Source of the DNA: Gemella sanguinis ATCC 700632
GTDB taxonomy: Bacteria; Bacillota; Bacilli; Staphylococcales; Gemellaceae
NCBI RefSeq assembly: GCF_000701685.1
Contig: NZ_JNJO01000003.1
Span: 1-64,000, forward strand
DNA: 64,000 nt
Direction: 5' to 3'
The position numbers were made by a program, and so were the translations under genes. The notes beneath the pieces were generated by a model, which did no database searches, was not told where the DNA came from, and saw only the letters and a list, made by a program, of their open reading frames with translations. Below, one piece after another: positions 1,113 through 13,616 of this stretch (its first letter is position 1; each line of letters begins with the position of its first letter).

Positions 1113-1151
1113 TTTGTATCATAGTTACTTTAAAGTAACATTTGTATCATA
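1113..1151 (-). promoter_or_regulatory. candidate operator upstream of the oxidoreductase gene
   Basis: A perfect 16-bp palindrome GTTACTTTAAAGTAAC (1124-1139) is flanked by two identical 11-bp direct repeats TTTGTATCATA (1113-1123 and 1141-1151). It lies about 90 bases upstream of the oxidoreductase start. The TACTT/AAGTA half-sites resemble sites bound by HxlR-family repressors such as YodB. The symmetry is seen; the regulator is inferred. Confidence 0.45.
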
Positions 1152-1231
1152 TAGCGTAATTTTTAAAGAAAAAAATAAAAGAAATGTATAACTTGAAAAT
1201 AAGATACATTTCTTTAATGATTAATATTTAA

Positions 1232-1591
1232 CTATCTCTGTTTAGTACTTTTTTTATTTTTACGAAGTTGTCTTACTAGAAAACCAATACCTTGCCCACA
1301 CAAACTAAAGAAAATATATAATAAACCATAAATTAGAATATCAAAATTTAATATAATTAGACAAGATAATAGATAAAAGGCTCCTACGAGAATAGAAAAT
1401 AAGTAGCTAAAATCCTCTTTATTATATGCATATAGAAAAGATATAATGAAATTGACAATTGGATATAAGAAAAGAAGTAACCATATTATCATTCCTGATC
1501 TATTTGATATAAAATAAGAACACAGAGGAAGTATTATAAATAAAAAGAAAGAAAAAATTAAATAGGGTACTTTTTCTAAAAACTTCTTCAT
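1232..1591 (-). CDS. small multi-spanning membrane protein, unknown function
   Basis: 119 residues with about four hydrophobic segments (roughly 8-29, 34-56, 62-82 and 84-105) and a basic tail ending RKNKKSTKQR, so the C-terminus is probably cytoplasmic. A strong AGGAGG precedes ATG at 1591 with normal spacing. I recognise no family motif. It stands alone between the oxidoreductase and the CsbD cluster. Confidence 0.7.
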   Translation of the reverse strand: MKKFLEKVPYLIFSFFLFIILPLCSYFISNRSGMIIWLLLFLYPIVNFIISFLYAYNKEDFSYLFSILVGAFYLLSCLIILNFDILIYGLLYIFFSLCGQGIGFLVRQLRKNKKSTKQR

Positions 1592-1789
1592 TGTCTGCCT
1601 CCTAATATAGTGTTATTCTATCATATATCTTTTTAAAAAACAAATTGTGTGCCGCTTTAAAATAGGTTTCTAGATTTCTAAAAATAGGTAAAGGATATCT
1701 TGAAAAATAGTGAAGTTATATGAGCTAGTTAATTGACTAAAATGAACTTGTAGTATAAAGTGTTATTATTAAAAAATGGAGGTATGACT

Positions 1790-1975
1790 ATGTCATTTGA
1801 AGATAAAATTAATCAAGCTAAAGATTCAATAAAAGAAGGTTTAGAAAAAATTACTGGAGATGAGAATATCGAATTAGAAAATGTAGTATCAAAAGTAAAA
1901 GAAGTAGCTGAAGATTCAAAAGGTAATGTTGAAGGTGCTATTGATACCGTAAAAAACTTATTTAAAAAAGATTAA
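1790..1975 (+). CDS. CsbD-family stress protein, copy 1
   Basis: 61 residues starting [20 protein letters not shown], the CsbD pattern of a short hydrophilic helical protein with the KxGxxKxxTGD segment (here [10 protein letters not shown]). CsbD proteins accumulate in general stress in Bacilli; the molecular role is unknown. ATG at 1790 is taken because GGAGG ends 7 bases before it; ATG at 1784 would be too close. The linker and C-terminal [24 protein letters not shown] closely parallel the copy at 2687, so the two are paralogues. Confidence 0.85.
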
Positions 1976-1989
1976 TTTTTAAAATTATA

Positions 1990-2046
1990 AAAAAGCTCTA
2001 TATTTTTTGTGGTTGTTAAATAACTATAAAGATTATAGAGCTTTTT
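1990..2046 (+). terminator. terminator after CsbD copy 1
   Basis: AAAAAGCTCTATA pairs with TATAGAGCTTTTT across a roughly 30-base AT-rich loop, ending in a T-run. The 3' arm resembles the one after CsbD copy 2, suggesting terminator and gene duplicated together. Confidence 0.65.
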
Positions 2047-2477
2047 ATTGTTGAATGTATAAGAAATAAATAGTTATATATGATAAGTGAAATCAATTAA
2101 CGTTGAAAGTTTTAGAAAAAAAAATTTAAGTTTATTATTAAATTTAATATATTCTATAAATTAGATGTATTTTTTATTATTTGAATATACAAATATATAT
2201 TTATTTTATAAAGGTTTATTAATTAGCAAGAAGAAGCTATAAGTAAATTAAAAAATAATAATATTTAATTGAAATTATTTCTATAACTATTTTAGGAAAT
2301 TTCAAGGATTATAAGATAATATAAGGATATAGAATATTATCACATCAATATTGCGAGCGTTTTCGTTGATTAATACCGTTTATTCATATATAGTAATAAT
2401 TAGATAGATATTTGTATGATATTTAAAAATTGGGACAAACAAAGTAAATATCTAAATAATTATAGGGAGGTGTTATT
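2047..2477. other. AT-rich intergenic stretch upstream of the second CsbD transcription unit
   Basis: No supportable gene. The only GC-rich patch is TTGCGAGCGTTTTCGTTG near 2351-2368. It matches the catabolite-responsive element pattern with about two mismatches and sits inside an imperfect inverted repeat (ATCAA/TTGAT). It may be an operator for the genes at 2478-2890. No clear -35/-10 pair was found. Confidence 0.3.
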
Positions 2478-2651
2478 ATGACATTAGAAGGTGGAGTTAG
2501 TGTACCGGCAGAAGAAAAGATAAATGTATCTAAAGCTGTAGAAGAAGTTGAAGATAAAAAAACAAATGAAGAGATTAATAAAATCGCCGATGAGACTAAG
2601 GAAGTATTAAAAGAGATTGGTGAAAATAAAGAAAATAATTTATTACAATAA
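2478..2651 (+). CDS. 57-residue charged hypothetical protein, probably co-transcribed with CsbD copy 2
   Basis: ATG at 2478 follows GGGAGG with good spacing and the frame runs 57 codons to TAA at 2649. The protein is Lys/Glu-rich (about 40 percent charged), with segments such as [20 protein letters not shown] and [14 protein letters not shown], so it is predicted helical or disordered. It is not CsbD itself but has a similar composition. The next CsbD gene follows after 35 bases with its own AGGAGG, so the two probably share an mRNA. No family recognised. Confidence 0.65.
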
Positions 2652-2686
2652 CCAAGAATAATTTAATTAAATTAGGAGGTAAAATT

Positions 2687-2890
2687 ATGTCATTAGAAGA
2701 AAAATTAGAACAAGTAAAAGGTTCAGTTAAAGAAGGTCTTGGAAAATTAACTGGAGATGAAAAAACAGAAAAAGAAGGAGCTGCAGAAAAAGTAGTTTCT
2801 AAAGTAAAAGAAGTAGCAAAAGATGCGAAAGATGCTGTAGAAGGTGCAGTTGATGGTGTAAAAAAAGCTATAAAAAAAGATGAAGAGTAA
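2687..2890 (+). CDS. CsbD-family stress protein, copy 2
   Basis: 67 residues, [20 protein letters not shown] followed by [11 protein letters not shown], the best match here to the CsbD core. The C-terminal half ([20 protein letters not shown]) is an Ala/Lys amphipathic helix. AGGAGG lies 8 bases before ATG. It is about 6 residues longer than copy 1, mostly through an EGAAEK insert. Cytoplasmic stress-induced protein by family; mechanism unknown. Confidence 0.88.
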
Positions 2891-2930
2891 AATTACTAAA
2901 ATAAATAATTGATTTTCCTTTCATTTAATT

Positions 2931-2986
2931 AAGCTCTATCAATCTTTTAACAAGTAAAGCTGTTATAAAGATTATAGGGCTTTTTT
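2931..2986 (+). terminator. terminator after CsbD copy 2
   Basis: AAGCTCTAT-C-AATCTTT pairs with AAAGATT-ATAGGGCTT, followed by a T-run. Its 3' arm (ATAAAGATTATAGGGC) is nearly the same as that of the first CsbD terminator. Confidence 0.6.
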
Positions 2987-3074
2987 ATTGTTTTGAATTA
3001 GTTTGCAATGAGAATAAGTTCACAAAATACGTAAATTTCTAATGTGTGGGTAAATATGGGACAAAGCGCAAAAT

Positions 3075-3122
3075 AAAAAGCCTTAAACGTAGATACTTTA
3101 AGGCTTTTCTAACTTTATTATT
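3075..3122. repeat. attL: direct copy of the rpmG terminator region
   Basis: Identical to 10517-10564 except C at 3113 versus T at 10555. The first 38 bases are identical, and weaker similarity continues upstream (GCAAAA-AAAAAG). It contains the hairpin AAAAGCCTTAAA...TTTAAGGCTTTT but no rpmG gene, as expected for the distal att site. Confidence 0.85.
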
Positions 3123-3298
3123 AATTATCTTGCACATATCAAAGGGATTAAGGTAATTTATTAATTAAGATATTAATAAGATAGAGTTATATACTAGTTT
3201 TTTTACGTTTTTTAAAAATTCTGTATTATATATGCTGTTATATTGACGATTTTTTTATCTATAGAAAGTAAAAAAGTTTCTTGAAGTATTCTTTTAAG

Positions 3299-3694
3299 TT
3301 AAATGTATTTACTATAAATTAGTGAGTAACTAGGATTAAATTCATTTTTTTCTAAATCTTCATCTTTTTTCTTTTGTTCAATTAAATATAGAATGCAGTT
3401 GAGGTCGTGTCTTATAAAAATTGGAAATGGAATTTTATTAGGTACTGTATATTCAAAGTCGTTAAACTCATTCTTTTCCACCTTCACATTGACATTTAAT
3501 ATAACCTTCTCATTGACATTTAATTTATCATTATTATTTAACTGTTTGGTCGCCTCCAAGTTTATTTTAACATATTTTTTTGATAGTTTTATTACTTTTA
3601 AAGTATAGACTATCTTTGCTTTCCAACGTTGATCTGTATAAGTAAATATTTCATCAGGATAACTTCTTAGTAATTCTTCTTTAGTTATACACAC
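3299..3694 (-). CDS. hypothetical protein in the islet
   Basis: 131 residues from a GTG start at 3694; GGAG lies about 11 bases upstream and no nearer ATG is in frame. The sequence is hydrophilic with a central stretch of alternating hydrophobic residues (KVILNVNVKVEK) suggesting beta strands. No signal peptide or membrane segment, and no family recognised. It lies 89 bases downstream of the GNAT gene on the same strand and could belong to its transcript. Start choice is uncertain. Confidence 0.55.
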   Translation of the reverse strand: MCITKEELLRSYPDEIFTYTDQRWKAKIVYTLKVIKLSKKYVKINLEATKQLNNNDKLNVNEKVILNVNVKVEKNEFNDFEYTVPNKIPFPIFIRHDLNCILYLIEQKKKDEDLEKNEFNPSYSLIYSKYI

Positions 3695-3783
3695 TAAACA
3701 TACATCTCCTTTTTTTAGTAGTTATTGTTTATATTTTTTACTGACTAACAACACAATGCACTTCATATAGTTATGATGAAGGG

Positions 3784-4386
3784 TTATTGTATTTTCATTA
3801 TCAGTACATTTAATTCATTGTCACCACGATAATTTTCTATTAAATTAAATCCAAACTCTTTATAAAAATCCAAAAGTTTTTCACTATCTTCACACTCTAC
3901 CCATACATATTTCACATTTACAACCTTAACAATATCTACTAGCATTTTATATGCTATTGCTAATAATTTATTTCCTGTTACTTCTTGTTTTATGCTATCA
4001 TCTAAATTATAATTTTTTCCAAGCTGTCCAATTAGATAACTATTAATCTCTACGAAATTTTCCTCTCTCCTACCATATTTCAATAATTTTTTCTTTTGAG
4101 TATTTGATAATTTCTCAAAATTCTTTTTAGTCATCTTTAATGGTCTATTTGCAAAAGAAAAATAACCAACAAGTACTGGTTTTTCTAACTCTACAAATGC
4201 CAAGTGCGTGGTTGCCCAAGCCATATTTTCAAAGTTAATAGCTTTATTATGTAAAAAGCACTCCACATCATTTTGTTCGTTTGTTTCATGATTTGGAATG
4301 CTTTTAAATTCTTTTAATATATTTTGTACATCCTCTTCAGAGAATGTATTTAATAAATCTTGAAGTCCGACTACATTAATCTCCAT
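3784..4386 (-). CDS. GNAT-fold N-acetyltransferase, candidate toxin of a two-gene module
   Basis: 200 residues. The C-terminal part has the GNAT order: strand EINSYLIGQLGKNY, a degenerate acetyl-CoA loop QEVTGNKLLAIAY near residues 134-146, strand VKYVWVECED, then the SEKLLDFYKEFGFNLI segment typical of GNAT motif B. The N-terminal 70 residues are not recognised. GNAT toxins such as TacT acetylate aminoacyl-tRNA and pair with a small upstream antitoxin. Here a 60-residue gene lies immediately upstream, overlapping by one base (TAATG), on a mobile islet and behind a strong promoter. GNAT membership is fairly sure; toxin activity is inference, and an ordinary acetyltransferase remains possible. 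Confidence 0.7.
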   Translation of the reverse strand: MEINVVGLQDLLNTFSEEDVQNILKEFKSIPNHETNEQNDVECFLHNKAINFENMAWATTHLAFVELEKPVLVGYFSFANRPLKMTKKNFEKLSNTQKKKLLKYGRREENFVEINSYLIGQLGKNYNLDDSIKQEVTGNKLLAIAYKMLVDIVKVVNVKYVWVECEDSEKLLDFYKEFGFNLIENYRGDNELNVLIMKIQ

Positions 4387-4568
4387 TAATTTTCCTTTCT
4401 AGTAGCTGGTTTTTTAAAAAGATTCACTATATCTTGACTACTTCTTACTATTTTAATATTAGAAATATCCTCTAAGTTTGGTTTTTTAATATTTTCAAGA
4501 GCATTCAAAAGGCTATCAGTAGATTTTCTATTGAATTTTAGAGTAGTATCAAAACTTTTTGTTGCCAT
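4386..4568 (-). CDS. 60-residue protein coupled to the GNAT gene, candidate antitoxin
   Basis: Starts MATKSFDTTLKFNRKSTDSL and ends KKPATRKEN. ATG at 4568 is chosen because AGGAGGTG lies at ideal distance; the longer frame upstream has no ribosome binding site and runs into the promoter. A short strand (SFDTTLKFN) followed by a helix could be a DNA-binding N-terminus, but it does not fit a ribbon-helix-helix pattern well. Its TAA shares a base with the ATG of the acetyltransferase, so translation is coupled. No named family recognised. Confidence 0.65.
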   Translation of the reverse strand: MATKSFDTTLKFNRKSTDSLLNALENIKKPNLEDISNIKIVRSSQDIVNLFKKPATRKEN

Positions 4569-4607
4569 CAGAACGCACCTCCTCTTTCTCTTTTTCTTTC
4601 TATTATT

Positions 4608-4637
4608 ATTATACCTGTTTATCTTGTTATGAGTCAA
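4608..4637 (-). promoter_or_regulatory. strong sigma-A promoter for the GNAT module
   Basis: Minus strand: TTGACT (4637-4632), an 18-base spacer, then a consensus TATAAT (4613-4608), about 40 bases before the ATG at 4568. It is one of the best promoter matches in the window. Confidence 0.7.
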
Positions 4638-4702
4638 TATAAAAATATGTCCCAAGGCAAATTCATTTCCCGGAAATAACCCGATAAAAGGAGTGTTTTT
4701 TT

Positions 4703-4783
4703 ATGAAATATAAAGTTGTTATTGTAATCACTTTGTATATGATATTATTCCTACATTTTCCAACATTTATATGGAGAATTTGA
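4703..4783 (+). CDS. 26-residue hydrophobic peptide
   Basis: ATG at 4703 follows AAAAGGAGTG by about 9 bases and the frame ends at TGA 4781. The peptide starts MKYKVVIVITLYMILFLHF: two lysines, then an unbroken hydrophobic stretch of about 20 residues, enough for one membrane span. It is transcribed opposite to the GNAT module and just upstream of a candidate small RNA. Size and build resemble type I toxins or small membrane regulators, but it lacks the charged C-terminal tail of the Fst family. A chance ORF is possible. Confidence 0.4.
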   Translation: MKYKVVIVITLYMILFLHFPTFIWRI

Positions 4784-4872
4784 CAAGTGCTGACAAATTG
4801 TTAAAGCTATTTTAAGCTTTGAATTTTACTCATAAGGTAATTAGCCTAACACTATATAGAATGCGCTCAGAA

Positions 4873-4901
4873 TTGAAAATACAAGCTAATTCTGGTATAA
4901 T
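4873..4901 (+). promoter_or_regulatory. strong promoter without a downstream gene
   Basis: TTGAAA (4873-4878), 17-base spacer, TATAAT (4896-4901). Transcription would start near 4908, and a strong hairpin terminator follows at 4922-4959. No ORF lies between. Confidence 0.6.
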
Positions 4902-4907
4902 AGATAT

Positions 4908-4960
4908 AGCTTTCTTATAAGAAAAACAAGCCGTGTTTTGTGGTACATGGCTTGTTTTTA
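4908..4960 (+). ncRNA. candidate ~50-nt small RNA
   Basis: Inferred only from a near-consensus promoter immediately followed by a 14-bp-stem terminator. The transcript would be little more than the terminator hairpin with a short 5' tail. It could be a small regulator or a decoy transcript that limits convergent transcription of the gene at 4967-5557. There is no homology evidence. Confidence 0.35.
4922..4959. terminator. bidirectional terminator
   Basis: AAAAACAAGCCGTG pairs with CATGGCTTGTTTTT (one G-T pair), with A/T runs on both sides. It serves the minus-strand gene ending at 4967 and any plus-strand RNA from the promoter at 4873. Confidence 0.75.
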
Positions 4961-4966
4961 ATTTTA

Positions 4967-5557
4967 TTAATTATATTTACAGAATGTTCTAACTAATTCC
5001 TGACATGCTGTTTCTAGTTGCTTCTGAGCATAAGTAAAAGCATAAGGAGAGTAGGGGGCGCATTCACTTTCTATTAGTGGGATACTTTCAATTTCTCCAA
5101 GGTAAGAATTTACTTTCGCTTTAAGTGGCTCGATAGTCTGAGTTTTTTCTTTACCATCTTTCTGAAGTTCAGTTAGCTTCTTGTTTGCATACTTAACTGC
5201 ATGATTAATAACTTCATCCAGGAGTGAAGATTTTCTAGAGAGAAACTCATTTTCTTCTTTTGTAAAGAACTCTCTTAATTTAGACAATTCCATTATTAAT
5301 TTTTTCTTTTGATCATTAAATTCTTTTTGGATATCCTCCTTTGTTGCTCTTAAGGTATTAATCTTAGTTATAGCTTCGGTCTCTTTAGTCTTTAGATCGA
5401 CCTTATCACTAATTGAAAGAGTAGCGCTATTTTTACTTTGAATAGTTTCTAATTCTTTAGCGGCATTATCTATTCTGTTATCTATCTCCTTAATCAATTC
5501 ATCATTGTTAGCTTCTAGCTGTTCTAGTTCTGTAATTTTATTTTGAATTCTTTCCAT
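4967..5557 (-). CDS. coiled-coil protein of unknown function in the islet
   Basis: 196 residues, strongly charged, with heptad-like Leu/Ile spacing through about residues 1-150 (MERIQNKITELEQLEANNDE onward), predicting a long coiled coil. A short Cys-containing C-terminal part ends ELVRTFCKYN. No signal or membrane segment. AGGAGG stands before ATG at 5557 with good spacing. It lies 12 bases downstream of the 66-residue gene and probably shares its mRNA. No family recognised. Confidence 0.65.
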   Translation of the reverse strand: MERIQNKITELEQLEANNDELIKEIDNRIDNAAKELETIQSKNSATLSISDKVDLKTKETEAITKINTLRATKEDIQKEFNDQKKKLIMELSKLREFFTKEENEFLSRKSSLLDEVINHAVKYANKKLTELQKDGKEKTQTIEPLKAKVNSYLGEIESIPLIESECAPYSPYAFTYAQKQLETACQELVRTFCKYN

Positions 5558-5569
5558 AATATAAACCTC

Positions 5570-5770
5570 CTATTTATTTCTAATGTTGTAACTATTTGCT
5601 ATGTCAGTAATACTTTCAGACTTGTTGCTTTGATGTAATGAAGCAATATCATTTCTTAACTCTCTGATTTCTTCTAGAGCAATATCTTTGCTTTTAGAAG
5701 AAAAGTCCTCGTCTTTAAATTCAGAAAGTGTAGCTATTATCTTATCATCTTCAATTCCAACGTCTAGCAT
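5570..5770 (-). CDS. 66-residue hypothetical protein
   Basis: Starts MLDVGIEDDKIIATLSEFKD; acidic N-terminal half, then a helical stretch IALEEIRELRNDIASLHQSN. AGAAGG precedes ATG at 5770 with short spacing. It is the first gene of a minus-strand pair with 4967-5557 and diverges from the decayed XRE regulator at 5983, the position usually taken by genes under such a regulator. Function unknown. Confidence 0.55.
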   Translation of the reverse strand: MLDVGIEDDKIIATLSEFKDEDFSSKSKDIALEEIRELRNDIASLHQSNKSESITDIANSYNIRNK

Positions 5771-5982
5771 CCTTCTTATTAATTTATCTAATATACATTA
5801 TTTTTATTTAGTTATTATATTAATATGATTTTCTTCAACAGTTTTAATTTATTATTATATGCTATGTGTACAGTTAAATTAGTTTATAAAAAATACTTAA
5901 TACTATTTCAAAATTAATTTAATAAATATTGTTTTATAATATGGTTTGTGATATCATTTATTATATAAGGAGAGGAGATTTC

Positions 5983-6584
5983 ATGAGTAATATAAATAAT
6001 TTCGGAAGAAATTTATACAAATAAAGAAAACTAAAAAACTTAAGTAAGATGGATCTAGGTATAGAGTTAGGTTTATATGGTTCTGATATAATCATGTATG
6101 AAACAAACCAGCGATAACCTAAAAAAGATTGTATAGAAGAGATTGCTCTTTTTCAATGTATCAACAGATGTTTTGTTAAAAATAGAAATTTTGAATAATT
6201 GTAAAATTAGAGAATTAAATAATTCTAATAATAATATATTAGAGGAAGAGTTCGCTCTTAATAATAAAGGGGATCATGGAATATTAGATGGTAATATTGG
6301 TAATTTATTAGATGATGATAAGCATACTGCATTTAAAATAGTTGTAAGTTTACTTGGGAAGCCTTACGCTAATATCACGAAATATAGATGAATTACAAGA
6401 AAAAATTACATTTTATCAAAATAAAGAAAAATTAATACAAAAAATTGATAAAATATAAGAAAAGTATAGTTTATCTAATATCGATTCAGATGAATTAAAA
6501 TATGATTTAGATAGATTACAAACATTAATATTAAATAATAACTACATTATTAAAAAATATTTACTAGAGAATTGGGAAATGTAA
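5983..6584 (+). pseudogene. decayed XRE-family (Cro/CI-type) regulator
   Basis: From ATG at 5983 (AGGAG upstream) the frame reads like the start of an XRE helix-turn-helix: NFGRNLYK, stop, then RKLKNLSKMDLGIELGLYG and DIIMYETNQR. In-frame TAA codons fall at 6022 and 6115. After a frame change near 6143 the expected FNVSTDVLLKIEI (end of the HTH domain) appears. A further frame change near 6385 gives DELQEKITFYQNKEKLIQ, a coiled tail, ending at TAA 6582 with one more internal stop. Two nonsense codons in the HTH plus two frame shifts mean the repressor is dead. Identity rests on the pattern R-x-L-(x)n-Y-E followed by F-x-V-S-x-D. Confidence 0.75.
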
Positions 6585-6767
6585 GTTAATATACAAACCA
6601 CATAATATAGCCCCTGTAACAAAGTACGGTAATGTTTATTTTGAATTTAATGAGGGGAGTGGATTATATAGTCACAAAAAAATAATAAATATTTGGAAGT
6701 TAATCCAAATACGAGATTTCCAGATTATTTAAAAAATAAAAATCCAATTAATTTTATTACAGAATAG
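6585..6767 (+). pseudogene. remnant of a second decayed gene
   Basis: Two coding-like pieces in different frames: YKPHNIAPVTKYGNVYFEFN (6592 onward) and YLEVNPNTRFPDYLKNKNPI ending at TAG 6765. They are separated by an A-run where the frame is lost. The stretches have normal amino-acid variety, unlike random AT-rich DNA. The parent family is not recognised; it could also be the tail of the XRE gene. Confidence 0.45.
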
Positions 6768-6795
6768 GGAATTTTATATTGAGAGGAAAAATGAA

Positions 6796-7812
6796 ATGGA
6801 GAATTTAACGGGGAATGATGTACTAATACTTCATTATATAGCAAAACGTAGTAAAGCTTCAGAATTATATCAAACATTTTGGAAAAATGACTACTTTAAT
6901 GATAATGAAAAATCACTTAATAATTTATTAGATAATGGCTATATAGAAATGAGGTATGATGAAAGAATATCATTAAATAAACTTAAAGTTGAAGAATTAA
7001 AGGAAATATTAGTTAAAGGTGAATTAAAAGTAACAGGTAAAAAGAATGATTTGATAGAGAGAATTATTGAGGAATGTGATAAGAAATATTATCAAAGGTA
7101 TCTCGAATTAGAAAGATATATAACTGATAAAGGAGAAAGTCTTCTATCTAGAACAAAATTTGTTTTAGTTGCTCACAGCAACAATATTGCTTATCCTGTG
7201 GATATTTACAACTTTTATCTTAGTAATCAAAACTCAGATGAATTAGATCTTATATGTGACTTTATTGAATGTAAAGTGAGGTTTGATAAAGAGACTAAAG
7301 AAATAAGTGATAATTCTTATTTGTATCACCAATTAAGTCAAGTATCTAATATTTATAATAATCAAGATAAGCAACTGTATTATTTATTAAAATCATGTTA
7401 TGAGTTCTTATCCACGGATACTCCATATCTTCGTTTAATAAACATAAAGGAATTTAAAAACTATGTAAATAGATTAAGTTTCCACACAAAAGATATAAGT
7501 CTTTTATTACAATCAAATCAAGACTTAAAAGAAAATATGGAATCATATATAAACAGTTTAGAAAAAACTTATTATAATAATTACTTTAATAATGATGAAA
7601 TAAAAAACCTGATTATTGCGTTTTGCTTAAAAAATTCCTATGAAGTTGATAGAATTATAGTGAATATTTATAAAAGAAATCAAGCTGAAGGTAAATTTAA
7701 TGGTAGTATAAGTGAGGAAATACAACAAGAGAATGTTAGAATTGAGTTTGAAGAAGATAAAAAAGAAAAAATAGGTTTTATGGATAAGATAAAATCATGG
7801 TTTAATGGCTAA
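6796..7812 (+). CDS. SAP-domain protein of unknown function (islet cargo)
   Basis: 338 residues. Residues about 58-95 carry a SAP motif (LNKLKVEELKEILVKGELKV followed by GKKNDLIERI), a small helix-extended-loop-helix fold usually binding DNA. The N-terminal 55 residues look like a short helical domain; residues about 100-270 are helix-rich with Tyr/Asn-rich stretches; the C-terminus is acidic then basic, ending MDKIKSWFNG, which could be an amphipathic membrane-touching helix. GAGAGG lies 9 bases before the ATG. The next gene starts 28 bases on with its own AAGGAG, so this looks like a two-gene operon. SAP is fairly sure; the function is unknown. Confidence 0.7.
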   Translation: MENLTGNDVLILHYIAKRSKASELYQTFWKNDYFNDNEKSLNNLLDNGYIEMRYDERISLNKLKVEELKEILVKGELKVTGKKNDLIERIIEECDKKYYQRYLELERYITDKGESLLSRTKFVLVAHSNNIAYPVDIYNFYLSNQNSDELDLICDFIECKVRFDKETKEISDNSYLYHQLSQVSNIYNNQDKQLYYLLKSCYEFLSTDTPYLRLINIKEFKNYVNRLSFHTKDISLLLQSNQDLKENMESYINSLEKTYYNNYFNNDEIKNLIIAFCLKNSYEVDRIIVNIYKRNQAEGKFNGSISEEIQQENVRIEFEEDKKEKIGFMDKIKSWFNG

Positions 7813-7840
7813 TAAAATTATACAATAAAGGAGTGATTAA

Positions 7841-8986
7841 ATGGAAAGATTATATAATGTGATTTTAGAAATTATATCTGATCTAATGATGGTTATATTT
7901 GTTTTGGTTAGTATGCTTGTAGTATTACTAGTCGTTAAAAATTTTGTTATAAGAGTATTCGAAAAAATTAAACAATTTAAAAATAAAAATGTGATTATTA
8001 TATTTGTGATAGCTAATATAGTTTTACTTATGCTTTTGTATAGTAAAAAAATATTGAAATTTCTAGGAATGGAAACAGAAAGTTCTATGAAGGAGATTGC
8101 AGAATTTTTGAATTTTCCGTACTTAGAGCAAGTATCATATTTAATTTTTTATTTTATTGAAATAATTTGTATTATTATATATTTTATATTTTGTAAAGTA
8201 ATTGCAGAAATAATATTTAAGAGAATAAATCTTAAATATAAAATATCTGAAAGCAAATCTAGACACTATGTTTTAATCTTTTTTATAGTCTTTTTTATAA
8301 TCTTTTTTATAATCTTGGTTAAAATCTTAGGTATGCTACTAACCAATTACGTTTATAAAAAACTTGCATGGTTATGGTTAATTTTTCTATTTAGGTTTTT
8401 ATTTATTGTTTTATTTAATTTTATATTTTTGTTAATATGTTTATTAGTTACTACTGCAAAAAAAACAAAAAATTATAAAAAAGATGACAAATCATTGTCT
8501 GAAATCAAGAATAAATTTTCAAAAATAATAACTGATGGAGCTAATGGGGCAAGTATCGATAAATTGTGTATTGATCTTGAAAGTATTTCTGATAAAGATA
8601 TATATAAAGTTTTAAAAAGTTTTAATACTCCGTCATTATTAGGTTTAAAATATATTTTGCAACAAGATAAAGAAAGAATAAAATTTAAGATATGGGAAAA
8701 AATGAAATCTATAGTTAAAGTTACAGCAATTGCTCCAGTTCTTAAACTTTTAAAAGATTCAAAGATATTTAATTCTAATGAGTTTATTAATTTTATTGAA
8801 TCCCAAAAAAATAATATTAAAATAATGGTTGCTGTGACAATTATATTAATATGTATGTTGTTAATAGATAATTATATAAGTAAAAATAAAGTACGAAGAA
8901 TTATATCGCCTAATTATTTATTATTGTTGATAGACGACATTCTCGAGTTGAAAAAAAGAGAGAAAAAATTGAAGAAATATATTTAA
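7841..8986 (+). CDS. multi-spanning membrane protein, partner of the SAP protein
   Basis: 381 residues. About five to six hydrophobic segments fall in the first 210 residues (near 10-35, 48-68, 100-128, 145-170, 178-205). A soluble segment of about 110 residues follows (KKDDKSLSEIKNKFSKIITD onward), then one more span near 327-345 and a basic tail. AAGGAG precedes the ATG. The gene is exceptionally AT-rich and contains a 12-bp tandem repeat (8279-8314) within a membrane span. No family recognised. A soluble domain between membrane segments, paired with a putative DNA-binding protein on a mobile islet, is a layout seen in some defence systems, but that is speculation. Confidence 0.65.
   Translation: MERLYNVILEIISDLMMVIFVLVSMLVVLLVVKNFVIRVFEKIKQFKNKNVIIIFVIANIVLLMLLYSKKILKFLGMETESSMKEIAEFLNFPYLEQVSYLIFYFIEIICIIIYFIFCKVIAEIIFKRINLKYKISESKSRHYVLIFFIVFFIIFFIILVKILGMLLTNYVYKKLAWLWLIFLFRFLFIVLFNFIFLLICLLVTTAKKTKNYKKDDKSLSEIKNKFSKIITDGANGASIDKLCIDLESISDKDIYKVLKSFNTPSLLGLKYILQQDKERIKFKIWEKMKSIVKVTAIAPVLKLLKDSKIFNSNEFINFIESQKNNIKIMVAVTIILICMLLIDNYISKNKVRRIISPNYLLLLIDDILELKKREKKLKKYI
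8279..8314 (+). repeat. three in-frame 12-bp tandem units inside the membrane-protein gene
   Basis: TTTTTTATAGTC then two copies of TTTTTTATAATC. The units are four codons long and encode Phe/Ile-rich turns of a membrane helix, so gain or loss keeps the frame. Confidence 0.7.
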
Positions 8987-9322
8987 TAAAAATTATTGAA
9001 AAAATAGGTAAGAGAGAAAAATGACAAGTAAGGGATAGGTGGAAAATAAAAAAGCACCAGTAAAAAATACTAGTACTGAAAAATGATAAACAAGTTTGAT
9101 ATTATAGTAACTCTATTATATCATATAAATGGTGTAATAACAAGGTTTGTAAGCTTACTTAAAATCGATACCCATTTAAACGGTGTATAAGCACGCTGTT
9201 TATCTTGGGGTAATTATATTAAAAATTATTTTAGACGTCTTCACGTTTGAAATACGAGGTGTTTTATAGAATAAATTTATTAATTTCTTTGATATGCGCT
9301 AGATAGAAAGGAAATGATAAAA
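8987..9322. other. leader region of the integrase gene, possibly with decayed coding DNA
   Basis: No supportable gene with a ribosome binding site. A 35-codon frame from 9083 (containing ITRFVSLLKIDTHLNGV) is followed, after one TAA, by ARCLSWGNYIKNYFRRLHV to about 9250. It may be a broken small gene such as an excisionase. The two GGTGTA-AA-AA-like segments near 9131 and 9183 could be integrase arm sites. Confidence 0.3.
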
Positions 9323-10480
9323 ATGATAAAAATGATAAAACAATATACTAAAAAATCTAATGGAAAAAACTATTATATGGTATATATTTATCTTGGAAAA
9401 GATGAGGTTACTAGAAAAGATAGGTATACTACTAGACGTGGCTTTAAAACTAGAAAAGAAGCTTTACTATGTGAAGCAAAAATTAAAACTGAAATAGCTA
9501 ATAATGGCTTACTGAATACTGATGTTACAACATTTAAAGAAATATATGAGTTATGGTATGAAGGATATCAACATACTATAAAAGAAAGTACATTACTTGT
9601 TAATCAACATATATTTAATTTATTACTTGATAAAATGGGAAATATGCAATTGAAAAAGATAACTCTACCTTATTGCCAAAAAGTGATAAATGTGTACAGT
9701 AAAACTTTTTCTCTGGCTGTTCTCAAAAAAATAAAGATCTATGGAAGCATGATTTTAGACTATGCTGTAAAAATGAAGGTTATTTATACTAACCCTATGA
9801 AAGATGTCTTATTACCTAAGAAAAATGATGATATAACTTCAGATGATAAGGATACATACTATTCTAAAGAAGAATTAAGAGAATTCCTTACATTAGTTGA
9901 GAATGAGCAGGATATAAAGCTAACTGCAATGTTTAGGGTGTTGGCTTATACTGGTATTCGTAAGGGTGAATTACAGGCTCTAGAATGGTCTGATATTGAT
10001 TTTACCAACAATATAATTACTGTTAACAAGACTTTAGCATTGAATACAGATAAAAAAGTAGTAGTGCAAACTCCTAAGAGTAAAAGCAGTATTAGAAATA
10101 TTAGTATAGATGAACAAACTGCTAATATTCTGAAACGTTGGAAAATTAAGCAAAAAGAGAAATTCATAATGGTAGGCACACGGGTAAAGAAGTATCAACC
10201 TTGTTTTACTGAAGAGGTATCAAATTCATATTTATATCTTAACTTCATGAATACCAATTCGAAGCGCATATGTAAGAAGAATGATTTTAAACAAATTAAA
10301 GTTCATGGTTTCAGACACACACATTGTAGCTTACTGTTTGAAAGTGGGTTTACCATTCAAGAAGTTCAAGATAGGTTAGGTCATTCTGACTTAAAAACAA
10401 CAATGAGTATTTATGCTCACGCAACTGAAAAACAAAGAGATAATATGGCTGATAAGTTTGCTAAATTTATGGCTTTGTAA
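9323..10480 (+). CDS. int: tyrosine recombinase (islet integrase)
   Basis: About 385 residues, usual for Tn916/phage-type integrases. Order: N-terminal arm-binding segment (KNYYMVYIYLGKDEVTRKDR), core-binding domain around TTFKEIYELWYEGYQHTIKE, then the catalytic domain with the active-site Arg in AYTGIRKGEL, HGFRHTHCSLLFESG (H-x-x-R), LGHSDLKTT (His) and the nucleophile Tyr in MSIYAHAT. All catalytic residues are present, so the enzyme is probably active. Three ATGs are spaced 9 bases apart (9314, 9323, 9332); AAAGGA at 9307-9312 is too close to the first and best placed for 9323. The gene ends 36 bases before the att repeat beside rpmG, as expected for the enzyme that inserted the islet. 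Confidence 0.92.
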   Translation: MIKMIKQYTKKSNGKNYYMVYIYLGKDEVTRKDRYTTRRGFKTRKEALLCEAKIKTEIANNGLLNTDVTTFKEIYELWYEGYQHTIKESTLLVNQHIFNLLLDKMGNMQLKKITLPYCQKVINVYSKTFSLAVLKKIKIYGSMILDYAVKMKVIYTNPMKDVLLPKKNDDITSDDKDTYYSKEELREFLTLVENEQDIKLTAMFRVLAYTGIRKGELQALEWSDIDFTNNIITVNKTLALNTDKKVVVQTPKSKSSIRNISIDEQTANILKRWKIKQKEKFIMVGTRVKKYQPCFTEEVSNSYLYLNFMNTNSKRICKKNDFKQIKVHGFRHTHCSLLFESGFTIQEVQDRLGHSDLKTTMSIYAHATEKQRDNMADKFAKFMAL

Positions 10481-10516
10481 CAGTTACATTGTCAAAACAT
10501 TGTCAAACGGCAAAAC

Positions 10517-10551
10517 AAAAAGCCTTAAACGTAGATACTTTAAGGCTTTTC
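10517..10551 (-). terminator. rpmG terminator within attR
   Basis: AAAAAGCCTTAAA pairs with TTTAAGGCTTTT around a short loop; on the minus strand it ends in a T-run right after rpmG. It may also stop integrase transcription on the plus strand. Confidence 0.75.
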
Positions 10552-10564
10552 TAATTTTATTATT
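10517..10564. repeat. attR: rpmG terminator and stop region
   Basis: Forty-eight bases matching 3075-3122 with one mismatch. It includes the rpmG stop codon (10560-10562) and its hairpin terminator, so integration restores rpmG and duplicates its terminator. Confidence 0.85.
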
Positions 10565-10709
10565 TAGTTTCTCTGTGTAAAGTCACTTTTTTTAATCTTG
10601 GACAGTATTTTTTAAGTTCAATACGGTCTGGATTATTTCTTTTGTTCTTTTTAGTAATGTAGTTTCTATCACCACATTCAGTACAAGCTAATGTTACATT
10701 TACGCGCAT
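10560..10709 (-). CDS. rpmG: 50S ribosomal protein L33
   Basis: 49 residues starting [18 protein letters not shown] and ending VTLHRETK, an unmistakable bacterial L33, a component of the large ribosomal subunit near the E site. Three cysteines (9, 12, 36) are present; the fourth zinc-ribbon position is Leu39. AGGAGG stands before the ATG. A TATAAT with TGG just upstream lies about 60 bases before the start on the minus strand. Its 3' end is the integration site of the islet. Confidence 0.95.
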
Positions 10710-11088
10710 TAATATAACCTCCTATAAAATTTAATCTTAACAACTTTTTCATACAACAAAATATATTATACCACTAGTCAATAGATATTTCCAGTGAAAA
10801 GTTAAAGTTTTTTTACTTTTTTTAATGGTTATTAATAATAGTTTATTTTATAATCAGCAACAATATTTGTAATATATAAGTTAGTAAATAACATAATAAC
10901 AGTTATATAGTTATTTTTAATGTTATGATATGATGTAACTATAGAAGAATATAATAGATATGAAGTAATGTTGCCTATAGAGAAGAAGATAGTAAAAAAA
11001 TAATATAGTTAAAAATATGATAAATGAAAACTTTAATTAAATTATGAGAAATTAGATTGATGTGATATAATGAAGATAGGTGATTATA
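10710..11088. other. AT-rich intergenic region between rpmG and a membrane-protein gene
   Basis: It contains the rpmG leader and promoter (TATAAT on the minus strand near 10770) and a weak extended -10 (TGATATAAT, ending at 11071) on the plus strand. Apart from these I see no gene or RNA structure. Confidence 0.4.
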
Positions 11089-11661
11089 ATGAAGAATCAA
11101 AATAAAAAAATAATAAAAGAAAGAGAGTTAGATAAATTATTTAGAAAAATTTTTGATAATAAAATAATGAAAAATATAAAAGATGATATAACATTTATAT
11201 TATTATCTTTGGGAGTAGGTAGTATAAGTTATTTTTATTTAATAAATTATCTACAAAAAAATATAGTTAATAAGGTTAAAGATTTTATGGATAATATTGA
11301 TACTGTTAGTGCTGTATCCTATAATAATACTGGCTATTTAATAGCAGGATTTATGATTATAATATTATCGATATTATTTTTAAATAAATCAAGAAGAACA
11401 AGATATTTAATTTTATTTTTTATAGCTTCCATATTTTTTGGGGGGATAAGTATATTTGCTATATTAATATTAGGAGAAAAATTATTTTTTTCAATACTTT
11501 GTTTATTATCAATTAGTTTATTAATATATGTATTAATAAACGCTTTAAAAAACATATATGGGTGGTTGAAGATTGATAAAAGTAAAGATAATCAAATAGA
11601 TGTAGCCAAACTTACTTTCATATGGGGAGTTATAATTTTTCTTTATAATTTATTAAAATAA
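11089..11661 (+). CDS. membrane protein of unknown function
   Basis: 190 residues from ATG 11089 (AGG 8 bases upstream; an in-frame GTG at 11080 overlaps that site). A basic N-terminal 35 residues precede a span near 38-58, an extracellular-like loop, then spans near 84-103, 108-126, 130-152 and a last one near 172-188. No family recognised. The next gene starts 4 bases after its stop, so the two are probably co-expressed. Confidence 0.6.
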   Translation: MKNQNKKIIKERELDKLFRKIFDNKIMKNIKDDITFILLSLGVGSISYFYLINYLQKNIVNKVKDFMDNIDTVSAVSYNNTGYLIAGFMIIILSILFLNKSRRTRYLILFFIASIFFGGISIFAILILGEKLFFSILCLLSISLLIYVLINALKNIYGWLKIDKSKDNQIDVAKLTFIWGVIIFLYNLLK

Positions 11662-11665
11662 GAAA

Positions 11666-12049
11666 ATGATAAGAAAAGGATATCAAATAGTAGAAATAAT
11701 ATTAGTGATAATATCCCTAGTGTTTCTATTTAAATTATATAATTACAAACAATATTTAACTGAAAAAATAATAGAGAAAAAATTTGGATTAATAAAAGAG
11801 GCGATTTTAATCGTAAAAGAGCCATATTATTTTCATTATTTAATATGTGGAATAGGAATATTAATAATGCTGATGGGTTTTATTTATTATTGTATAAGAT
11901 ATGAACAAGATAGTGGATTAAGTCTAGTCATTATAGTTATATTTAATATAATATTAACAATAATAGTGTTGTGGGTTTTTTGGAGTCCTATATTGACTAC
12001 ATTGTGTATAATTGGTGTAATAGGGTTACTGGCAATAAAAGGTATATGA
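11666..12049 (+). CDS. small membrane protein of unknown function
   Basis: 127 residues with three predicted spans (near 8-24, 58-78, 87-125, the last perhaps two). The ribosome binding site is poor (AATAAG), consistent with translational coupling to the gene ending 4 bases before. Very AT-rich and not recognised. Confidence 0.55.
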   Translation: MIRKGYQIVEIILVIISLVFLFKLYNYKQYLTEKIIEKKFGLIKEAILIVKEPYYFHYLICGIGILIMLMGFIYYCIRYEQDSGLSLVIIVIFNIILTIIVLWVFWSPILTTLCIIGVIGLLAIKGI

Positions 12050-12548
12050 TAATTCTTGAGAATATGATAAAAATAAATATAACTATATTATAAATAGATT
12101 AGTAATGTTTTTAATGGCGAATTCCCAGTGATATTAGCTAATATATTGTTTTGTGTTAGATTAATAAGATAATCCAATGAAAATAAAAAATTTATAGTGC
12201 TATGAATAAAATATTAAATGAGAAAATTAAGAGTTAATAATAATTAGGGTATGAGTATTATATAGTTAACACTATTGTATATCTATATTCAAATGATGTA
12301 GCAGAATCAACAATAAAAATTATTTGTAGTGCTGTAATGATGCTTAAAATCTTAGAATAAGTGTATTTATTATAAGTAGTTTTAGTGAAGAGATAATGAA
12401 AAGAGACAAGAGGCTATTAGAGTATGGCGACAGAGTAATTAAAATAAAATATTAAATTAAACCTGTTAATATAGTAAAGATAAAAAAATTTCTATATTGA
12501 TAGGTTTTATTTATCATTAGGGATTGAAAAAAACAAAAACAAGAAAAA
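12050..12548. other. decayed AT-rich DNA
   Basis: No intact gene. Short coding-like pieces occur (SNDVAESTIKIICSAVMMLK near 12290-12357; SSFSEEIMKRDKRLLEYGDR to a stop near 12454), separated by stops. They suggest remnants of accessory genes. Nothing ties them to a family. Confidence 0.3.
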
Positions 12549-12595
12549 ACTCATAAAAAATTGATTTAGGCTAATAAAATCAATAATTTATGAGT
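12549..12595. terminator. bidirectional terminator between the membrane-protein region and tal
   Basis: ACTCATAAA-AATTGATTT pairs with AAATCAAT-TTTATGAGT, with A-runs before and after. It terminates the minus-strand transaldolase transcript. Confidence 0.65.
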
Positions 12596-12654
12596 AAAAA
12601 TATTTTAATTATTACATAAATATTTGTTTATGGAGAATTAATATAAATAAAAGA

Positions 12655-13308
12655 TTATTCTCCGAAAACTTTATAGTAGTCTTGTTTAAATTTTTCAATA
12701 CCAATATCAGTAAGTGGATGTTTAATCATTTGTTTAATAACGCTGTAAGGAACTGTAGCTATGTCACATCCCATTTTAGCACATTCAACAACATGAATTG
12801 GATTTCTAACACTAGCTGCGATGATTTCTGTATCAAAATCGTTGTTAGCAAAAATTTCCACGATTTCTTCAATAAGGATTAATCCGTTATGAGAAATATC
12901 ATCTAGTCTACCTAAGAATGGAGATACATAAGTAGCTCCTGCACGAGCAGCCAGTAAAGCTTGGTTAGGGCTGAAAATTAATGTAACATTTGTTTTTATG
13001 CCTTCTTTTTTAAGGACTTTAACAGCACGTAATCCATCTTCTGTCATAGGAATTTTTACAACCATATTAGGGTGGATTTTAGCAATTTCACGAGCTTCAG
13101 AAACCATATCTTCCCAATTAGTAGTAGTAGCTTTAACCTCTCCACTAATAGGTCCATCAACTATTTCTGTGATTTCTTTAATTACCTCTTTAAAGTCTCT
13201 CCCTTCTTTTGCGATTAGTGAAGGATTTGTAGTAACCCCACAAATAACTCCTAAATCATTAGCAAGGCGAATGTCATCAACATTTGCAGTATCTATAAAA
13301 AATTTCAT
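12655..13308 (-). CDS. tal: transaldolase (TalC-type, short form)
   Basis: 217 residues, [18 protein letters not shown] then [13 protein letters not shown]. The Schiff-base Lys lies in [11 protein letters not shown]. The family includes transaldolases and fructose-6-phosphate aldolases; the SPFLGRLDD segment carries Phe where FSA has Tyr (APYVNRID), favouring transaldolase, which transfers dihydroxyacetone between sugar phosphates in the non-oxidative pentose-phosphate pathway. Cytoplasmic. Single gene with its own terminator; AAAGGAG-type ribosome binding site. Confidence 0.92.
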
Positions 13309-13616
13309 TTTTTAACTCCTTTCATTTCTCTCTATAATAGATAATAGCATATAATGAAAACAATTTCAATTATGTATATATCCTAATAAATATGAGTAAG
13401 TAATAATTGTATTTTAAATAGAATTTTTATCAAATATTGTACTAAAAAGGTAAAATTAGAATAAAATCTTTAATCTATTAGAACTTGTAAAAAATAAGGA
13501 TTTATTACAACAAAAATAAATATTATAGGATGGAAAAATTTTCTTAAATATGATAAAATAAAGTATTAAGAAATCAACGAATAAAATTTCTCATGAAAGA
13601 GATTGAAGGAGATTGT
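13309..13616. other. divergent promoter region between tal and korA
   Basis: AT-rich, holding both leaders. A -10-like TGATAAAAT at about 13551-13559 would serve korA. No RNA gene or riboswitch-like fold recognised. Confidence 0.35.

Follow-up and report, generated by a model that had tools for sequence, protein, structure and literature searches.

A 7,442-bp integrative islet (3075-10516) lies at the terminator of rpmG, the gene for the 50S ribosomal protein L33, in Gemella sanguinis ATCC 700632, within the 64,000-nucleotide stretch of contig NZ_JNJO01000003.1 that was analysed here (positions 1 to 64,000, hereafter the window). We propose that this islet is probably what remains of a phage satellite, similar to the phage-inducible chromosomal islands (PICIs), which would have inserted at the rpmG terminator and decayed since. 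The site of the islet, its boundaries, its relatives and its marks of decay are established by sequence comparison; its satellite ancestry, its loss of mobility and the function of its cargo are what we infer.

Results

The islet is bounded by two direct repeats of 48 bp (3075-3122 and 10517-10564) that differ by a single mismatch and whose similarity stretches to 69 nt at 90%. Since the runner-up match to this 48-mer in the window has 18 mismatches, a chance origin of the repeat is excluded. The repeated sequence consists of the rpmG stop codon and the terminator hairpin, and in both copies folding predicts an identical hairpin, with a T-run behind it on the strand of rpmG. The copy at 10517-10564 is the functional rpmG terminator, including the stop codon, and is kept behind rpmG in all eight other genomes of the genus present in our comparison set of 60 relatives; the copy at 3075-3122 is its duplicate at the left end of the islet. 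The target gene rpmG (10560-10709, reverse strand) is an intact open reading frame (ORF) of 49 aa (PF00471, 4.5e-25), and the L33 protein that it encodes is 100% identical to that of relatives. Near this end of the islet lies an open gene for a tyrosine integrase of 388 aa (9314-10480, forward strand) with arm-binding, SAM-like and catalytic domains (PF14657, PF14659 and PF00589), in which the R (TGIRKGE), HxxR (HGFRHTH), and H and Y (LGHSDLKTTMSIY) motifs were recognised by eye as expected. It is the sole tyrosine integrase match of its type in the genome, which holds no second copy or related integrase. The islet thus displays two marks of a site-specific element at rpmG, i.e. flanking direct repeats of the target and an open tyrosine integrase near one end. 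An earlier note, made from the sequence alone, had described a segment flanked by a near-perfect repeat, a duplication of the rpmG stop codon and terminator, an rpmG gene preserved by the integration and an intact tyrosine integrase beside it, and all four descriptions hold. Two other candidates were rejected: a tRNA gene as integration target, none being present in the window, and a plasmid origin, for which no match was found.

Comparison with relatives supports a site-specific insertion for the closest of them. Among the 60 relatives, a second terminator copy occurs only together with an intact integrase at the rpmG site, i.e. in G003, a genome of the same genus whose integrase beside rpmG is 84% identical to that of the islet and whose second terminator copy stands ~9.1 kb off. 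G008 has a single terminator copy and flanks nearly identical to those of G003. On the rpmG side, positions 3401-3749 of G003 correspond to 1473-1821 of G008 (100% over 349 bp); beyond the far repeat of G003, positions 12740-12929 correspond to 1748-1949 of G008 (92% over 202 bp), and the junction sequence of G008 runs on into the same obgE neighbourhood as in G003. By this comparison, G003 and G008 constitute the occupied and empty sites of a sister element, which bears out for the closest relative the idea of a site-specific insertion at the rpmG terminator. None of the 60 relatives carries both repeats and the same intervening genes without the integrase. Broken integrase fragments adjoin rpmG in G004, G006 and G010, only the last ~17 codons of an integrase are retained near rpmG in G005, and arm-like direct repeats stand alone near rpmG in G002, G007 and G008. 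Read from these genomes, the rpmG terminator is a repeatedly hit insertion target; of the eight other members of the genus, one has an intact element and five show a stub or fragment of an integrase or arm-like repeats.

A pair of direct repeats with a period of 11 bp (TTTGACAATG; 10487-10507, reverse strand) lies within the islet, close to its integrase end. Related integrases are accompanied by an 11-bp-period direct-repeat pair just inside the integrase end of their element, and five related elements (G003 at rpmG, G009, G004-C14, G002 and G003-C15) have a matching pair near the far end too. Based on position, period and the presence of the arm-binding domain PF14657, these repeats are putative arm-type sites of the integrase. 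For the far end of the islet, a search for such repeats with relaxed matching gave nothing better than shuffled sequence.

Other marks of decay are found in the gene content. The CI-like repressor, a helix-turn-helix (HTH) protein (5983 to ~6585, forward strand), is a pseudogene whose translations are interrupted by in-frame stops and frameshifts, with a read-through piece matching HTH_19 (2.7e-6); this pseudogene is all that is found of the repressor/regulatory module of a PICI. Family searches of the islet ORFs recognised no replication or excisionase gene, no coupling protein or conjugation relic, no virion family, not even as a fragment, and no relaxase family in any ORF, the relaxase being the criterion for an integrative and mobilizable element (IME). 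The replication module of a PICI (primase or rep) is likewise missing from the islet and present in the sister element of G003. In the genome as a whole, neither the terminase large subunit (phrog_2) nor a DUF5906/D5-type primase (PF19263) was matched, and hence the genome shows no sign of a resident helper or of a satellite that could complement the islet. Because the repressor is broken, no replication or excision gene is recognised, the arm repeats are found at a single end and no helper is evident, the islet is, as judged from its sequence, probably defective and no longer able to excise or spread alone. The absence of relaxase, replication and virion genes agrees with the earlier note, whose view that movement, if any, would depend on helper functions we count as supported. 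Its suggestion of a minimal integrative element is not supported in the sense of an element that is minimal by design, given the repressor pseudogene, the lost replication/excision block and the missing far arm repeats.

The satellite ancestry is suggested by the layout of the islet. Its sister element in G003 (L066, about 3741-12805) has the same attachment (att) site, a second terminator copy, an integrase on the rpmG side and 11-bp-period arm repeats, and its genes comprise an integrase, a DUF3800 gene, a CI-like HTH gene, a Cro-like HTH gene, an HTH_17 excisionase/AlpA-like gene and an 816-aa D5-type primase, with no virion gene among the genes scanned. It differs from the islet by its intact CI, Cro, HTH_17 and primase genes, by having both arm pairs and by its DUF3800 cargo in place of SAP, membrane and GNAT genes. 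A second satellite of the family, in G012, shows the order integrase, PDC-S19 candidate defence gene, SAP relative, CI, HTH_17, primase and small terminase subunit. The order in the islet is integrase, membrane protein, SAP protein, CI-like pseudogene on the same strand, opposite-strand genes and a terminal pair of a small ORF and a GNAT gene. The Streptococcus satellites Javan54 (MK448526) and Javan652 (MK448600) likewise have such a pair at one end of their records, with the integrase at the opposite end, a CI repressor and no structural genes annotated; these satellites differ from the islet in that replication and regulatory genes are present, the host and attachment site are others and nothing but the GNAT pair and the type of integrase is homologous. 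This layout matches the frames of G003 and G012 and includes the Javan-type GNAT pair, which is why we interpret the islet as a phage satellite that has decayed. With 7,442 bp between its att repeats and no virion structural genes, it also falls within the size class of PICIs, about 7-20 kb (PMC13376191).

The islet appears to have a predecessor at the same place. Directly left of the left repeat and outside the islet, positions 3010-3074 (forward strand) contain the remnant of an integrase gene of the G003 type, with its final codons (ENKFTKYVNF-stop) at 3010-3042 and its decayed arm repeats at 3043-3074. Aligned with the integrase end of the G003 element, this relic scores 37.5, against a maximum of 26.5 in 1000 shuffles. 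The position of the stub argues for insertion of the islet between rpmG and an older element of which almost nothing is left. Tandem islands of integrative and conjugative elements (ICEs), IMEs and cis-mobilizable elements (CIMEs) at rpmG and other genes of Streptococcus salivarius have been reported to be arranged likewise, decay being most advanced in the element most distant from the target gene (PMC7563491).

Concerning the cargo, the gene between the repressor and the membrane protein encodes a SAP-domain protein of DNA-binding type (6796-7812, forward strand, 338 aa; PF02037, 1.3e-8). Its structural model is all-helical, with a winged-helix-like N-terminus, the SAP motif and a helical domain (mean predicted local distance difference test score of 83). 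The model has no significant match in the PDB, and the viral proteins that it matches best are either unnamed or phage proteins with a SAP domain, so that no enzymatic function is suggested. Relatives of this protein lie next to the rpmG integrase relic of G006 and between integrase and repressor of the G012 satellite, and the others are phage and chromosomal SAP proteins without an enzymatic fold. The neighbouring accessory membrane protein (7841-8986, forward strand, 381 aa) has about seven predicted membrane segments and belongs to no known family, and neither the 60 genomes nor phages and viral contigs contain a relative of it. At the other end of the islet, a GNAT-type acetyltransferase of 200 aa (3784-4386, reverse strand; phrog_1758, 2e-38) overlaps a small partner ORF (4386-4568, reverse strand; phrog_6339, 1.1e-10), which is open from 4655 and has a conserved part of about 60 aa. 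The two genes (3784-4568) are conserved together without a Pfam match and form a candidate toxin-antitoxin pair; the GNAT is 49% identical to that of Javan54, its relatives occupy a terminal or near-terminal position in many phages and satellites, and in G011 the pair stands among toxin-antitoxin-like genes. The remaining ORFs, all on the reverse strand, are a predicted coiled-coil protein of 196 aa (4967-5557), with weak coiled-coil matches only and no relative among the genomes of the bacterial family, phages or viral contigs, a small and possibly truncated ORF without firm family (5570-5770), and an ORF of 131 aa at the far end (3299-3694) without family or phage match. A protein-pattern search of IMG/VR with the integrase, SAP, membrane and coiled-coil proteins returned no relatives. 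The statement of the earlier note that most of the cargo belongs to no recognised family holds only in part: the SAP protein, the GNAT with its partner ORF and the CI-like repressor can all be recognised. No structured RNA in or near the islet was matched in Rfam, and a strong hairpin at 4922-4959 was read as an ordinary terminator. At 4873-4965, a strong promoter-like site with an extended -10 faces a highly stable hairpin about 20 bases on (z = -5.0). This hairpin probably terminates the 4967-5557 gene and is read here in the opposite direction, a short RNA being the alternative.

The gene order around rpmG is rearranged. In most relatives, the order is X (a membrane ORF of 119-120 aa), fsa, rpmG, terminator and obgE; in the window (1149-3075 and 12652-13327), it is X, CsbD genes, islet, rpmG and fsa. 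The obgE gene lies about 122 kb from rpmG in this genome (G000 contig C3 132219), and G001 has yet another order. Immediately left of the older integrase stub, at 1760-2890, are two stress genes of CsbD type together with a small ORF that looks related, and a CsbD array in G002 (L104, about 1300-2650) shows up to 68% similarity. The gap between rpmG and fsa (10826-12651, about 1.8 kb) contains two small multi-membrane ORFs (11080-11661 and 11666-12049) that are absent at this place in relatives, where fsa adjoins rpmG. Elsewhere, integrases related to that of the islet were noticed by eye, from their flanks, next to the 3' end of further genes for ribosomal proteins, apparently rpsO in G005 (L102 3274) and rpsI in G038 and G049 (L110 and L112). 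Next to three related elements (L106, L107 and L108), a selD-like gene with an in-frame TGA (MIVCGG-TGA-NSKIGPG) was seen by eye within 300 bases downstream of the integrase, which suggests a selenocysteine-containing selenophosphate synthetase.

Discussion

The history that we propose for the islet would start with its own Tn916/phage-type tyrosine integrase, which would recombine a short attP core with the rpmG terminator. The stub of an earlier element of its kind being already present, the islet would have come to lie between this stub and rpmG, in a serial insertion. The duplication of the terminator on insertion would leave rpmG its stop codon and terminator. The replication/excision block and the far arm repeats would then have been lost and the repressor would have died, leaving as residue the accessory cargo in its two usual slots, i.e. 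the SAP and membrane proteins between integrase and repressor and the GNAT pair at the far end. Several points weigh against this view. The satellite ancestry draws on the sister element, on gene order and on two homologous cargo modules, with no replication or packaging gene left in the islet, and the GNAT pair is present in full phages as well. The empty-site pair comes from G003 and G008 only, the islet's own empty site not having been seen, and the far arm repeats may have diverged beyond recognition instead of having been lost.

The main competing explanation, which we consider unlikely, is that a full-length prophage at the rpmG terminator was cut down by one large internal deletion to its two ends, the integrase/lysogeny end and the far-end cargo. 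The integrase does match phrog_1, which is common to many phages, GNAT genes lie near the genome ends of full phages of Streptococcus, Staphylococcus and Clostridioides, and the degraded rpmG-site integrase of G010 is followed by prophage-like-looking genes. However, the closest relative of the integrase (84% identical) belongs to a satellite-like element of ~9.1 kb at this very site, no virion gene or fragment is left in the islet, and no terminase large subunit was matched in the genome. Less probable still is a deliberately minimal and still active mobile genomic island (MGI) or defence islet, made of integrase and cargo and mobilised in trans by ICEs, phages or the excision factor of another element. 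The open integrase, the nearly identical att cores and the accessory genes in the slot of the G012 candidate defence gene are consistent with such an island, and relaxase-free islands of integrase and cargo have been described as MGIs at streptococcal sites (PMC7563491); yet the repressor is a pseudogene, the far arm repeats are absent, no excisionase is recognised and the genome has no other integrase of this kind. Finally, a decayed IME or ICE in the style of Streptococcus salivarius is very improbable in spite of the frequent tandem insertion of ICEs and IMEs at the rpmG 3' end, most decayed element farthest from the target as in the window (PMC7563491), since the islet contains no relaxase, coupling protein or conjugation relic, its recognisable relics (CI, GNAT pair) are of phage/satellite type, and its longer relative in G003 carries satellite genes and no relaxase.

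The islet has precedents in every respect: its target and its type of integrase are known, and so are its class of element and the serial insertion. The rpmG gene is a described target of streptococcal ICEs (PMC4701971, PMC7563491) and IMEs (PMC7563491), so the 'unreported-looking' of the earlier note does not apply to the site. With the streptococcal ICEs, IMEs, CIMEs and MGIs found there (PMC4701971, PMC7563491), the islet shares the target gene, a tyrosine integrase and the serial insertion order; it differs from them by the absence of relaxase, coupling protein and conjugation genes and by an att core located in the terminator and stop codon. Its open integrase also separates it from a CIME, defined by the lack of a functional integrase between att sites. 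In comparison with Gram-positive PICIs and satellites (PMC6092414) such as StCI of Streptococcus thermophilus (PMC13376191), the att repeats, the tyrosine integrase, the repressor position, the accessory genes, the absence of virion genes and the size class are alike, whereas the islet has no replication module, a dead repressor and no demonstrated helper phage or packaging. The library that we searched yielded no paper linking Gemella and phage-inducible islands, the one exception being an incidental paper on Macrococcus.

The cargo is most likely of phage-defence, superinfection or toxin-antitoxin type, and it offers two candidate modules, the SAP and membrane proteins on the one hand and the GNAT with its small ORF on the other. 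By analogy with the G012 satellite, in which the slot between integrase and repressor is occupied by a candidate defence gene, a defence or exclusion role of the SAP and membrane proteins is plausible. As a speculative extension to which we attach a low probability, these two co-directional genes (6796-8986) might together constitute a hitherto undescribed module for phage defence or superinfection exclusion, in which the winged-helix-like, SAP and helical domains would make a DNA-binding sensor and the membrane protein would act as effector. If this is true, the host would keep the islet for the module after the loss of mobility.

More generally, the paired arm repeats of 11-bp period provide a simple marker to distinguish complete elements, with a pair at both ends, from dead ones, with a pair at one end. 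In addition, the rpmG terminator, known as an insertion site of streptococcal ICEs and IMEs, is evidently used by satellite-type elements in the genus Gemella also.

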